64,000 nucleotides of DNA from the NCBI GenBank assembly GCA_021299375.1, contig JAJTGR010000021.1, forward strand, positions 1-64,000. Direction: 5' to 3'. The translations under genes were made by a program, and so were the position numbers. Origin of the DNA: Gemmatimonadota bacterium (GTDB lineage Bacteria > Gemmatimonadota > Gemmatimonadetes > Gemmatimonadales > Gemmatimonadaceae). Under the pieces are notes generated by a model. That model worked only from the letters and a program-made list of their open reading frames with translations. It made no database searches and was not told the origin of the DNA. Positions 14,162 through 17,178 of the stretch are shown in pieces (position 1 is the stretch's first letter; every line of letters begins with the position of its first letter).

Positions 14162-15565
14162 TCACACCGCGTCCGACAGGCTCGTGAAATTGAAGTCGCG
14201 CACCTTGATGGGAGGCATGGCCAGGCCAGGGCCCCCTTCGCCACCCGCGGTGCGCACGCTCTTGCCGATCCCTTCGACGTTGTTGAGCATGAACAGCGGC
14301 GAGTCGTTGAAGCGGAAGTTCTTGATCGACCGCGCGATCTTTCCGTTTTCGACAAGAAAGGTGCCGTCGCGGGTGAGCCCGGTGTACATGAGCGTGCGCG
14401 CATCGAGCGGGCGCAGGTACCACAGGCGCGTCACGAGCACGCCGCGCGTGGTGCTGGCGATCATCGAGTCGAGCGTGTCGGGGCCGTCGGCCATGCGCAG
14501 CCCGGCGGTGCCGCCGGTAGGGGTCTTGCCCTGCTTCCCCGCCCAGAACCGGTTGTAGGCCAACTGGTTCAATACGCCGCCCTGCACCCACGTCTGCCGC
14601 GTCAGCGGCAACCCTTCGCCGTCGAAGGGTGAGGCGAGGATGAGGGGATCGGCGGGATCGGAGTAGAGCGTGACCCGCTCGTCGACGATCTTCTCGCCCA
14701 GCTTCGTACCGCCCGGCTTGGAGAACGCCGACCGGCCCTCGTCGGCGGCGCGCGCCTGGAACGCGTTGCCCATGAGGCTCACCAGATTCGCGGTGGCCTC
14801 CGGCTCGAAGATCACGGTGTACCGTCCCGGCTCCAGCCCCACCGGAGTGCGCGACCGGCGCGCCTTCTCGATGGCCCGGTCGGCGACACTCCGGAAGTCC
14901 AGTCGGGCCCAGTCGGTATCCTCGGCGCCCACCCACCCCGACCCGGTGCCGTCGTTGGTGCGCGCGGTGAGGGTGTAGTTGGCGGTGGTGCCGCGATGAT
15001 AGGCGAACAACCCGGCGTTGGTGCCGATGGCCGTGGCCGACGCATTGCAGATGATGAACCCGGCGACGGTGAGTTCGCCGCCGGCGCGGGCGGGGGCCAG
15101 TGCCGTGAGCGCGGCCCTGGCGCGATCGTCGGCGGTGAGATCGGCGGTGGCATCACTCCAGGCATCGACGCGGCCGTACTGCTGCGCGCCGAGCTCGCCG
15201 AGATACTCGGGGTCCTCGGGAGCGAGGCGGGCGATCGCTTCCGACTGCTGCACGGCGCGACGCAGTCCTTCGTCGCTACGGTCGTTGGTCACCACGCTCG
15301 CCTTCCGCTTGCCGAAGACACTCTGCACGCGAATGGTGGTGTTGGTGGTCACGCCGCTCGTGCTGAGCTGGTTGTCGGCGAAGCGCAGGTTGGTTTCGCG
15401 ACTGCTGGTCACGCTCACGCGGACCGCATCGGCGGTGCTCAGCTTCACGGCCCGTTCCACGAGCGCCTGCGCGTCCTCGCGCGAGAGCACACTGGCGGCG
15501 GCGCGGGGCGAGCGCCCGATGGCGAACAGCGACCTGGGCGCGTCGGGCGATTGGTGGTGGCTCAC
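14162..15565 (-). CDS. TldE/PmbA family protein (metallopeptidase partner subunit)
   Basis: The 467-residue protein has the TldD/PmbA fold: N-terminal LVERAVKLSTADAVRVSV and FADNQLSTSGVTTNTTIRV, and C-terminal segments such as ALNQLAYNRFWAGK and GTAGLRMADGPDTLDSMI. It lacks an HExxxH motif, as expected for the TldE subunit, which pairs with TldD to make the active protease. The GTG start overlaps the TldD stop by 4 nt, so translation is coupled. Unlike its partner it has no signal peptide. In other bacteria the complex matures ribosomal peptides such as microcin B17 and degrades unfolded peptides. Confidence 0.87.
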   Translation of the reverse strand: MSHHQSPDAPRSLFAIGRSPRAAASVLSREDAQALVERAVKLSTADAVRVSVTSSRETNLRFADNQLSTSGVTTNTTIRVQSVFGKRKASVVTNDRSDEGLRRAVQQSEAIARLAPEDPEYLGELGAQQYGRVDAWSDATADLTADDRARAALTALAPARAGGELTVAGFIICNASATAIGTNAGLFAYHRGTTANYTLTARTNDGTGSGWVGAEDTDWARLDFRSVADRAIEKARRSRTPVGLEPGRYTVIFEPEATANLVSLMGNAFQARAADEGRSAFSKPGGTKLGEKIVDERVTLYSDPADPLILASPFDGEGLPLTRQTWVQGGVLNQLAYNRFWAGKQGKTPTGGTAGLRMADGPDTLDSMIASTTRGVLVTRLWYLRPLDARTLMYTGLTRDGTFLVENGKIARSIKNFRFNDSPLFMLNNVEGIGKSVRTAGGEGGPGLAMPPIKVRDFNFTSLSDAV

Positions 15566-17178
15566 AGCGCGCGCCCCGTGTTGATGATGTTCGCATTCCT
15601 GAAGCGGGCCGGCGGACAGCCGTGACTCACCGCGTTGCTCTGGCCGGGCTGCCCCTTGCCGTCGTTGAAGGTGCCGCCGTGCATGTAGCTCTTCTTGCCG
15701 CCGAGCATGTCGAGTGTGTTCCAGAAGTCCGGCGTGCGCATCTGGTAGGCGGCGTCCTTCACCTGGCCCACGATCTTGCCCTTGCGGATTTCGTAGCAGA
15801 GCTGGGCGCCGAACTGCGCGTTGTAGCGCTGCTGATCAATGGAGTACGACGCGCGACCGATCATGGCGATGCCCTTGTCGGTCGCGGCGATGAGATCATC
15901 CCAGCCGATGTCCTGGTCGCCCGGCTGCAGCGACACGTTGGGCATGCGCAGGAACGCCACGTCGGCCCAGCTCTGCGCGTACGAACAGCCGTGGGAGCGC
16001 ACGGGCTTGCCCGTCTTCGCGTAGTACTCGCGCAACCACGGCGCCTGCTCGCGGTTGGTCTGGTAGTCCACGAAGATGCCGTCCTTGACGATGTGGAAGT
16101 CCTCCGGCACCACGCCGTCGTCGTCGTAGCCGATGGTAGCGAGGGCGCCCGTTTCGCTGCGGTTGCCCACGAGGTTCATCATCGGCGGGCCGAGCTTGAG
16201 CGAACCCAGCACCTTCTGCGGCGGGGCGATGAAGCTGGTGCCGGCGTAGTTGGCTTCGTAGCCCATCGCGCGATCGAGCTCGGTGGGATGAGCCAGCGAC
16301 TCGTGGATGTTGAGGAACAGCTGCGACGGATGCAGGATGAGGTCGTAGCGCCCCGGCTCCACGGGCTTGGCGGTGAGCTTCTCGGCGGCTTCGGCGGCCC
16401 ACACCTTGGCGTTGGTCACGATGTCGGCTTCGAGCACGTACTCCCAGCCGCGGCCGGCCGGCTGCACCACCTCGGGGCCCCGCACGGCGGTCCCGCTGCG
16501 ATCGGGGGCCACGGCGGTACAGCTCATGGTGACCCAGCTGCGCACGTAGTCCTGCGTGGTGACGGTGCCGTCGGTGTTGGCGTAGTTGCGCTCTTCCTTC
16601 ACGAACGACAGGCCGCTGTTCACGAAGCGCACGTTGGGCACCGTGAGCGCCGCAGCATTGGCGCGCAGCAGCAGATCGGCCTTCTCCTCGATGGCGATCG
16701 TGAACGGGTCGACGGTGTAGCTCGAGCGCCACGTCTTGTCGGCCTGGGCGGGCGCGGGGGCGAGTTCCACGCGCCGGTCGCGCGCGAGCCCATTGGCCTT
16801 CGCGATCGCCACCGCCTCCTGCGCCGCGAGGCCGACCCCGGTCTTGGTGAGCTCCTGCGTGGCGGCGAAGCCCCAGCAGCCGTCCACCAGCACGCGCACG
16901 CCACAGCCCATGGTATCGGCGTCCACGACATCGGTGACCTGCTTCTCGCGCGTCTGCACGCTGTTGTTGCGGTTGCGCGAGATGCGGACGTCGGCCCACG
17001 AGGCGCCCGCCCGTTTGGCGGCGTCGAGTGCCTCCATCATCAGCTCGCGCGTGGCGGGGTCCGTGTAGAGGGCCGGGAGCGGCGCCGGGGCGGGGAAGGC
17101 CTGCAGAAGGCGGGGGCCGACGGCGAGGGCGCCAAGCGCCGCGCCGCCGGTGGCGAGAAAATCGCGACGGGTGGTCAT
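15562..17178 (-). CDS. tldD: TldD family zinc metallopeptidase with Tat signal
   Basis: The 538-residue protein starts MTTRRDFLATGGAALGAL, a clear twin-arginine signal. The TldD zinc motif HESLAH (HExxxH, about residues 291-296) is intact. Other family features are CGVRVLVDGCWGFAATQE near 110-130 and the Gly-rich C-terminus HGGTFNDGKGQPGQS. TldD is the catalytic subunit of a heterodimeric peptidase whose active chamber admits only unfolded chains. Export by Tat is notable because the E. coli enzyme is cytoplasmic. The downstream TldE gene overlaps by 4 nt and has no signal of its own. Confidence 0.92.
   Translation of the reverse strand: MTTRRDFLATGGAALGALAVGPRLLQAFPAPAPLPALYTDPATRELMMEALDAAKRAGASWADVRISRNRNNSVQTREKQVTDVVDADTMGCGVRVLVDGCWGFAATQELTKTGVGLAAQEAVAIAKANGLARDRRVELAPAPAQADKTWRSSYTVDPFTIAIEEKADLLLRANAAALTVPNVRFVNSGLSFVKEERNYANTDGTVTTQDYVRSWVTMSCTAVAPDRSGTAVRGPEVVQPAGRGWEYVLEADIVTNAKVWAAEAAEKLTAKPVEPGRYDLILHPSQLFLNIHESLAHPTELDRAMGYEANYAGTSFIAPPQKVLGSLKLGPPMMNLVGNRSETGALATIGYDDDGVVPEDFHIVKDGIFVDYQTNREQAPWLREYYAKTGKPVRSHGCSYAQSWADVAFLRMPNVSLQPGDQDIGWDDLIAATDKGIAMIGRASYSIDQQRYNAQFGAQLCYEIRKGKIVGQVKDAAYQMRTPDFWNTLDMLGGKKSYMHGGTFNDGKGQPGQSNAVSHGCPPARFRNANIINTGRAL

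Follow-up and report, generated by a model that had tools for sequence, protein, structure and literature searches.

The tldD–tldE locus

The window analyzed in this study is a stretch of 64,000 nucleotides from a Gemmatimonadota bacterium (contig JAJTGR010000021.1, positions 1 to 64,000), and its minus strand carries tldD followed by an overlapping tldE, the genes for the two predicted subunits of a TldD/PmbA-family metalloprotease. The first gene (15562..17178) specifies the catalytic subunit TldD (P0001, 538 amino acids), which was identified by Pfam and TIGR01409 matches and by an AlphaFold2 (AF2) model. Its predicted signal peptide for twin-arginine translocation (Tat) spans residues 1 to approximately 26 (17101..17178), with the arginine pair (RR) at residues 4 and 5; the end point of this peptide is approximate. 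The second gene (14162..15565) begins with GTG and specifies a TldE/PmbA-type partner (P0002, 467 amino acids) without an export signal, as judged from Pfam matches, a survey of start codons, and an AF2 model. The two genes share the four nucleotides GTGA (15562..15565), which join the stop codon of TldD to the start codon of TldE.

Three further features, all on the same strand, are considered below. The HExxxH metal site of TldD occupies residues 292–297 (HESLAH, 16288..16305), as recognized by motif and alignment. Asp506 of TldD (15661..15663) is the predicted third metal ligand and stands at the place of Escherichia coli Cys454, an assignment that relies on alignment and on a statement in PMC5810440. 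In the N-terminal tail of TldE, residues 10–14 read PRSLF (15524..15538), which a motif count identifies as a case of the pattern P[RK]xL.

Family membership and predicted folds

The three PmbA_TldD domains of Pfam (PF01523, PF19290, and PF19289) exceed their gathering scores in both proteins. HExxxH is present in the window TldD and absent from the window TldE, and an alignment of 57 selected catalytic TldDs shows no variation at H292, E293, or H297. The equivalog models of NCBIfam are not reached by either subunit (49 versus 513 bits for TldD with NF008006, and 42.5 versus 438 bits for PmbA with NF008268). By the NCBIfam rule, the two proteins are therefore classed as members of the TldD/PmbA family and not as equivalents of the E. 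coli pair. The closest named relatives of the window TldD are 94–87% identical and are found on Gemmatimonas, Gemmatimonadetes, and Gemmatimonadota contigs.

AF2 models of both subunits were built from alignments without E. coli rows. The TldD model (mean predicted local distance difference test score [pLDDT] of 89.8) finds E. coli TldD, chain 5nj5_C, as its best match in the PDB (Z 36.0, root mean square deviation 3.0, 457 residues), and it matches the TldD chains of 5nj5, 5njf, and 5njc best (Z 35.6–36.0). For the TldE model (mean pLDDT 91.6), the best matches are the PmbA/TldE chains 1vl4_A (Z 38.4) and 6j6a_A (Z 38.0); chains of this type score Z 33.5–38.4, versus 29.4–29.8 for TldD chains. 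On the evidence of these models, both subunits are predicted to share the fold of solved TldD and TldE. When used alone as PDB queries, the window proteins match only PmbA/TldE-type chains. Profile matches to 5nj5_A and 5nj5_B were set aside because the underlying alignments contained the E. coli proteins, so that these matches arise by construction.

A Tat signal on TldD and none on TldE

The window TldD carries a predicted Tat signal peptide, recognized by TIGR01409 (TAT_signal_seq), which matches residues 2–32 with 21 bits at a cut-off of 16.7. Translation from the ATG at 17178 gives an N-terminus that reads MTTRRDFLATGGAALGALAVGPRLLQA. The open frame extends only three codons beyond this ATG (541 versus 538 amino acids), and thus a longer N-terminus is impossible. 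Residues 1–33 have pLDDT values below 50 in the AF2 model.

For TldE, the GTG at 15565 is the first ATG, GTG, or TTG of the open frame, and the 80 codons upstream of it hold no hydrophobic stretch as judged by eye. None of the four start codons in the N-terminal region yields a Tat motif with a hydrophobic core (h-region), or any hydrophobic stretch, under a rule of our own. A TldE signal made from an alternative start is therefore ruled out. The original prediction had described a Tat signal confined to TldD, and this asymmetry holds when every start of TldE is considered. The locus has the arrangement expected of a hitchhiker, in which a partner without any export signal is encoded beside the subunit that bears one.

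Distribution of the signal in the phylum

The survey drew on 118 loci (80 named contigs), 52 additional loci, six plasmid stretches, and 20 further stretches. TldD and TldE genes were gathered by BLAST against 18 references with a bit score above 120. Once entries with identical 120-residue ends had been removed, the set comprised 188 TldD-type and 176 TldE-type genes, still with some near-duplicates. In 151 TldDs, a Tat pattern is found close to a possible start. The number of Tat-TldDs is again 151 after removal of L175 (M. ulcerans), a false hit that lies above the annotated start, and addition of L164, whose signal was recognized by inspection. Among the 151 pattern hits, the RR begins at residues 3–7 in 149, phenylalanine occupies position RR+2 in 149, and lipobox-like endings occur in five. 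TIGR01409 at E ≤ 1 matches 59 of 85 TldD representatives versus none of 82 TldE representatives.

Under our simple rule, no signal is found in any of the 163 TldEs with a readable 5′ end; the remaining 13 of the 176 have a 5′ end that is cut off or was not placed by the script. Readable TldEs of the L166 group begin with M-[YF]TR, and inspection by eye shows no leader. A loose first filter had called Tat signals in several TldEs, among those listed L021, L022, L025, L032, L038, L087, L095, L098, and L104. These calls come either from frames read on into the overlapping TldD gene or from an RR that lacks a hydrophobic stretch, and none remained once starts were limited to the vicinity of the TldD stop. 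TIGR03808 (TAT-translocated repetitive protein) weakly matches two of the 82 TldE representatives (best E value 0.0026), and a rescan of 10 of the 82 did not identify these two.

Neighboring pairs with TldD first comprise 119 in which a Tat-TldD precedes a leaderless TldE and 22 in which both subunits are leaderless. The original prediction had raised the question of whether an exported TldD is always coupled to a leaderless TldE, and in this phylum that is so for 119 of 119 readable neighboring pairs with TldD first. The asymmetry between a signal-bearing TldD and a leaderless TldE is therefore general in the phylum and not a local oddity. The 4-nucleotide overlap, to which the original prediction also drew attention, is present at the locus; it occurs in 72 of 119 Tat-TldD/TldE pairs versus 21 of 22 leaderless pairs. 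Because it is common in leaderless pairs too, the overlap is a trait of the family and is not special to the exported kind.

Leaderless relatives occur in the phylum as well. Most weak matches belong to a different TldD, marked by HEAFGHLSEAD, which has no signal and is paired with a leaderless TldE. Such pairs are the ordinary cytoplasmic arrangement, and the phylum contains both kinds. The leaderless TldDs of the phylum contain no RR stretch like that of the Tat-TldDs. A tblastn search of plasmids gave 15 records; in the six examined, the five TldDs with a readable start are all leaderless. A search of phages gave five records, and two scans of viral contigs found no relative. In Streptomyces phage Success, an annotated metalloprotease (NC_073472.1:6519–6764) is 57% identical to TldD residues 453–534. 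TldDs annotated as exported also exist in other phyla.

TldE lies immediately downstream of 121 of the 151 Tat-TldDs. In 17 cases no further family gene follows and less than 1500 nucleotides of downstream sequence is available, and in six the next gene is another TldD (tandems), including L147, where a frameshift divides a single TldD. The remaining seven have no next family gene despite at least 1500 nucleotides downstream. Five of these seven belong to the L166 type, in which TldE is found immediately upstream although the downstream sequence is long enough; for L011, the TldE is present and had been removed from the survey as a duplicate; and the only family gene near L106:3950–5602 is the TldE of the pair that precedes it.

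TldD inventories of nine near-complete genomes

The genome that contains the window (95.9% complete) and eight others at 96%–100% completeness were searched with PF19289, and every match was classified gene by gene. In the genome of the window, six genes form three TldD–TldE pairs, which lie on contigs C14, C106 (the window), and C110. A Tat signal is present on each of the three TldDs and on none of the three TldEs, and leaderless TldDs number zero. This genome encodes TatC (212.6 bits, G000:C48). Across the nine genomes, the signal is found on 29 of 29 TldD genes and on none of 28 TldE genes (29 matches, one gene being in two pieces), and no leaderless TldD is present among the classified PF19289 matches. 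HExxxH is found in 26 of the 29 TldDs and is lacking in two of G017 and one of G073. These results provide the strongest argument for co-export, since a TldE that remained in the cytoplasm would have no TldD partner there.

Several genomes hold three or four Tat-TldD/TldE pairs. In one single-contig genome, an apparent frameshift divides the TldE of a C110-type pair (G074:C1:3113262–3113958; L186, L211, L224).

An aspartate as the predicted third metal ligand

The metal ligands of E. coli TldD are His262, His267, and Cys454, and Asp can stand in for the Cys, “e.g., in Gemmatimonas sp.” (PMC5810440). The window TldD has Asp506 instead of Cys, a difference at a site that does not define the family. 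Among Tat-TldDs with HExxxH and a readable site, 129 of 130 have Asp (128 from the script plus L164). Among leaderless TldDs with HExxxH and a readable start and site, all 24 have Cys (21 by script, L175 and L178 at their annotated starts, and E. coli). The counts leave out L101, L091, L168, L095, L147, and L083, which have Asp and a 5′ end that is missing or split, L139 and L176, which have Cys and an unclear 5′ end, and L111 and L141, whose site is unreadable.

The alignment of E. coli with the window protein is ambiguous by a few columns near Cys454. The assignment of the swap therefore rests on the published statement and on the closest leaderless relatives, TldDs of Nonomuraea and Mycobacterium, in which FNCGKGQPGQ or INCGKAQPGQ aligns without gaps to FNDGKGQPGQ. 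On a tree of 45 rows, two changes are needed to explain the Tat signal, and one suffices for the ligand. Within the resolution of this tree, the change of ligand and the main gain of the signal share a branch (support for the Tat clade 92/86). The change from Cys to Asp may represent replacement of an oxidizable thiol on exit from the cytoplasm.

Selection on TldE and a motif in its N-terminal tail

The ratio of nonsynonymous to synonymous substitution rates (dN/dS) is 0.07–0.25 for TldE versus 0.07–0.18 for TldD, in seven comparisons each. Purifying selection thus acts on TldE as it does on TldD. In the family of the window, TldEs that belong to Tat pairs often have a tail of 10–30 residues ahead of the first helix, with the motif P[RK]xL. 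Among 130 tails of the E1, E14, and E110 groups, 64 contain this motif (64 matches versus 0.8 expected from the remainder of the same proteins). It is found in none of six tails of the E_L160 group and in none of 27 TldEs of a comparison set, whose members mostly start directly with the helix. The tail is not a signal peptide. Tat pairs from other parts of the phylum (e.g., L147, L151, and L154) are without P[RK]xL, and thus the motif is not required for co-export. As a guess, the tail might help the pair to dock.

Cysteine content was also considered. TldEs contain 0.32 Cys per 100 residues in Tat pairs (129 genes) versus 0.61 in leaderless pairs (18 genes), a comparison that ignores kinship. 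Catalytic Tat-TldDs are not poor in Cys (0.75 versus 0.60 per 100 residues). For both reasons, the low content of TldE is not used as evidence for export.

Relatives without HExxxH and neighboring genes

One family of Tat-TldDs (f5; L158–L163, L165, L173, and L198) lacks both HExxxH and the Asp ligand. Its members are mostly arranged in tandem, followed by one TldE, and would be exported without being ordinary metalloproteases. The 2.9-Mb genome G269 (L188–L194) has 27 PF19289 matches; five of its TldDs that were examined are without HExxxH, keep their Tat signals, and adjoin a TldE. L184 and L185 are leaderless pairs of a TldD-like and a TldE-like protein with HExxxH in neither, and they are possibly noncatalytic cytoplasmic shells.

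No gene that flanks the window pair recurs in at least two of seven other loci of the same kind with long flanks, and therefore gene context gives no functional clue. Downstream of tldE, the minus strand between 9080 and 14033 encodes a TonB-dependent receptor, a small His/Cys-rich protein without a Pfam match, and a BNR-plus-thioredoxin-like protein. This row of genes is perhaps related to metals.

A model for export and its alternatives

E. coli TldD/E is a stable complex that is active only with both subunits, and it forms a hollow shell around the site in TldD, with no metal contained in TldE (PMC5810440). We propose that the two proteins of the window would be translated from one overlapping message and would fold and assemble in the cytoplasm into a closed TldD/E metalloprotease shell. 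The Tat translocase would then export the finished heterodimer by means of the signal peptide on TldD alone, with TldE hitchhiking. Once exported, the enzyme would act as a chamber for the trimming of unfolded peptides, located either in the periplasm or at the membrane. Co-export accounts most simply for the overlapping genes, for the purifying selection seen on both subunits, and for the absence of an alternative TldD. Hitchhiking is likewise the most economical reading of the leaderless TldE found in all readable pairs, together with the nine genomes that have no leaderless TldD. We consider it probable that TldD/E folds in the cytoplasm and leaves it as a heterodimer in this way.

The hitchhiking proposed in the original prediction is thus partly supported by the survey of pairs, by the signal-free TldEs, and by the genome inventories. 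We infer from these patterns the binding of the subunits here, Tat-dependent export, co-export, periplasmic activity, and the nature of the substrate. The heterodimer has been described for E. coli alone, and by analogy it would form here as well. The description of that complex as an obligate heterodimer is correct in that activity needs both subunits, but each E. coli subunit also forms homodimers (PMC5810440).

Several observations weigh against the export of an assembled heterodimer. The evidence comes almost wholly from one phylum. The tandems (TldD–TldD–TldE) and L106:3950–5602, a Tat-TldD that follows a TldD–TldE pair and has none of its own TldE within ∼4 kb downstream, indicate that TldD at times outnumbers TldE. 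Eighteen Tat-TldD genes (20 by script, two of which are fragments) are without HExxxH, so that export is kept also by copies unable to be ordinary TldD proteases. The E. coli-like TldD of L140 (1429–2961), whose neighbor is a leaderless TldE, combines a Tat signal with a Cys ligand, and on the tree it is a second, separate gain of the signal. Since the ligand was swapped only once on this tree, the Asp ligand, which was well kept after one change and would fit export, serves as corroboration and not as a statistical correlation. Moreover, a Sulfolobus TldD homodimer is reported to be active, as cited in PMC5810440. Because such homodimers exist, TldD could act alone outside the cytoplasm.

This last point underlies an explanation that we consider unlikely, namely that TldD alone is exported and is active outside in homodimeric form, with TldE remaining in the cytoplasm, either paired with itself or bound to a different partner. 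The missing signal on TldE and the Tat-TldDs without a TldE of their own would agree with it, as would the homodimers just described. However, the metal-free E. coli TldE and the need for both subunits argue otherwise, the nine genomes offer no leaderless TldD with which TldE could pair, and TldE is conserved and adjoins most Tat-TldDs. Quite improbable is the view that the RR stretch is vestigial or unused and that the complex stays in the cytoplasm like that of E. coli. The signal is read from sequence, a few h-regions are weak (the lowest best 14-residue mean hydropathy is 0.23), and 26 of the 85 TldD representatives are unmatched by TIGR01409 at E ≤ 1. A vestige would be hard to reconcile with the near-constant position of RR and the phenylalanine that follows it, with the five lipobox-like endings, or with the absence of such a stretch and the different metal ligand in leaderless relatives. 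We give hardly any credence to the idea that TldE gets outside independently of TldD, by unconventional secretion or lysis, and meets it there. Nothing specific speaks for this route, which would be a second and unknown one, whereas Tat is known to move preassembled complexes (PMC4273604).

Export of the assembled pair can be extended to a broader hypothesis, which we hold tentatively and would not yet call probable. A whole branch of the TldD/E family, as a self-compartmentalized protease that trims peptides, would now reside outside the cytoplasm, having been exported by Tat in assembled form on the signal of TldD; the change from Cys to Asp, with a carboxylate in place of the metal-binding thiol, would spare the site from oxidation, and P[RK]xL might in part of the branch assist docking. 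In E. coli, TldD/E carries out the maturation of microcin B17 and also acts on CcdA, and its general role is unclear (PMC5810440). If export occurs, the natural substrates of the exported enzyme must include peptides outside the cytoplasm. The swap of Cys for Asp also offers a natural experiment on why a thiol is the usual ligand in TldD.

Comparison with known systems

In full-text searches of the open-licence literature on TldD/PmbA, a body of work that leaves most subscription papers outside, none of the titles and abstract openings listed reports an exported TldD, and the word “periplasm” occurs zero times in PMC5810440. The enzyme is known and the principle of export is known; within that open-licence literature, the combination of the two seems to be unreported.

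The window pair resembles E. coli TldD/TldE (PmbA; PDB 5NJ5) in its three Pfam domains, its predicted fold, the restriction of HExxxH to TldD, and its two-subunit logic. In contrast, the E. coli subunits are free of signals, their genes lie far apart, Cys454 is found in place of Asp506, and identity is only ∼20%. The plasmid pairs of Nonomuraea and Mycobacterium are closer, with a TldD that is 42%–44% identical to the TldD of the window or of C14, the motif HESIGHATE, and an adjoining TldE. Nevertheless, they are without a signal peptide and have Cys at the position of Asp506.

The route of export has its nearest parallels in the Tat hitchhikers HybOC and PaoABC of E. coli, in which the Tat signal is also found on one subunit and its partner or partners have none. 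These complexes exit by Tat with one signal per complex, and each subunit needs the others (PMC4273604). They differ from TldD/E in that they are redox enzymes whose export was demonstrated experimentally, whereas the window encodes a protease whose export is deduced. If the proposed model is true, then a protease would be added to the preassembled complexes carried by Tat, most of which are redox enzymes.

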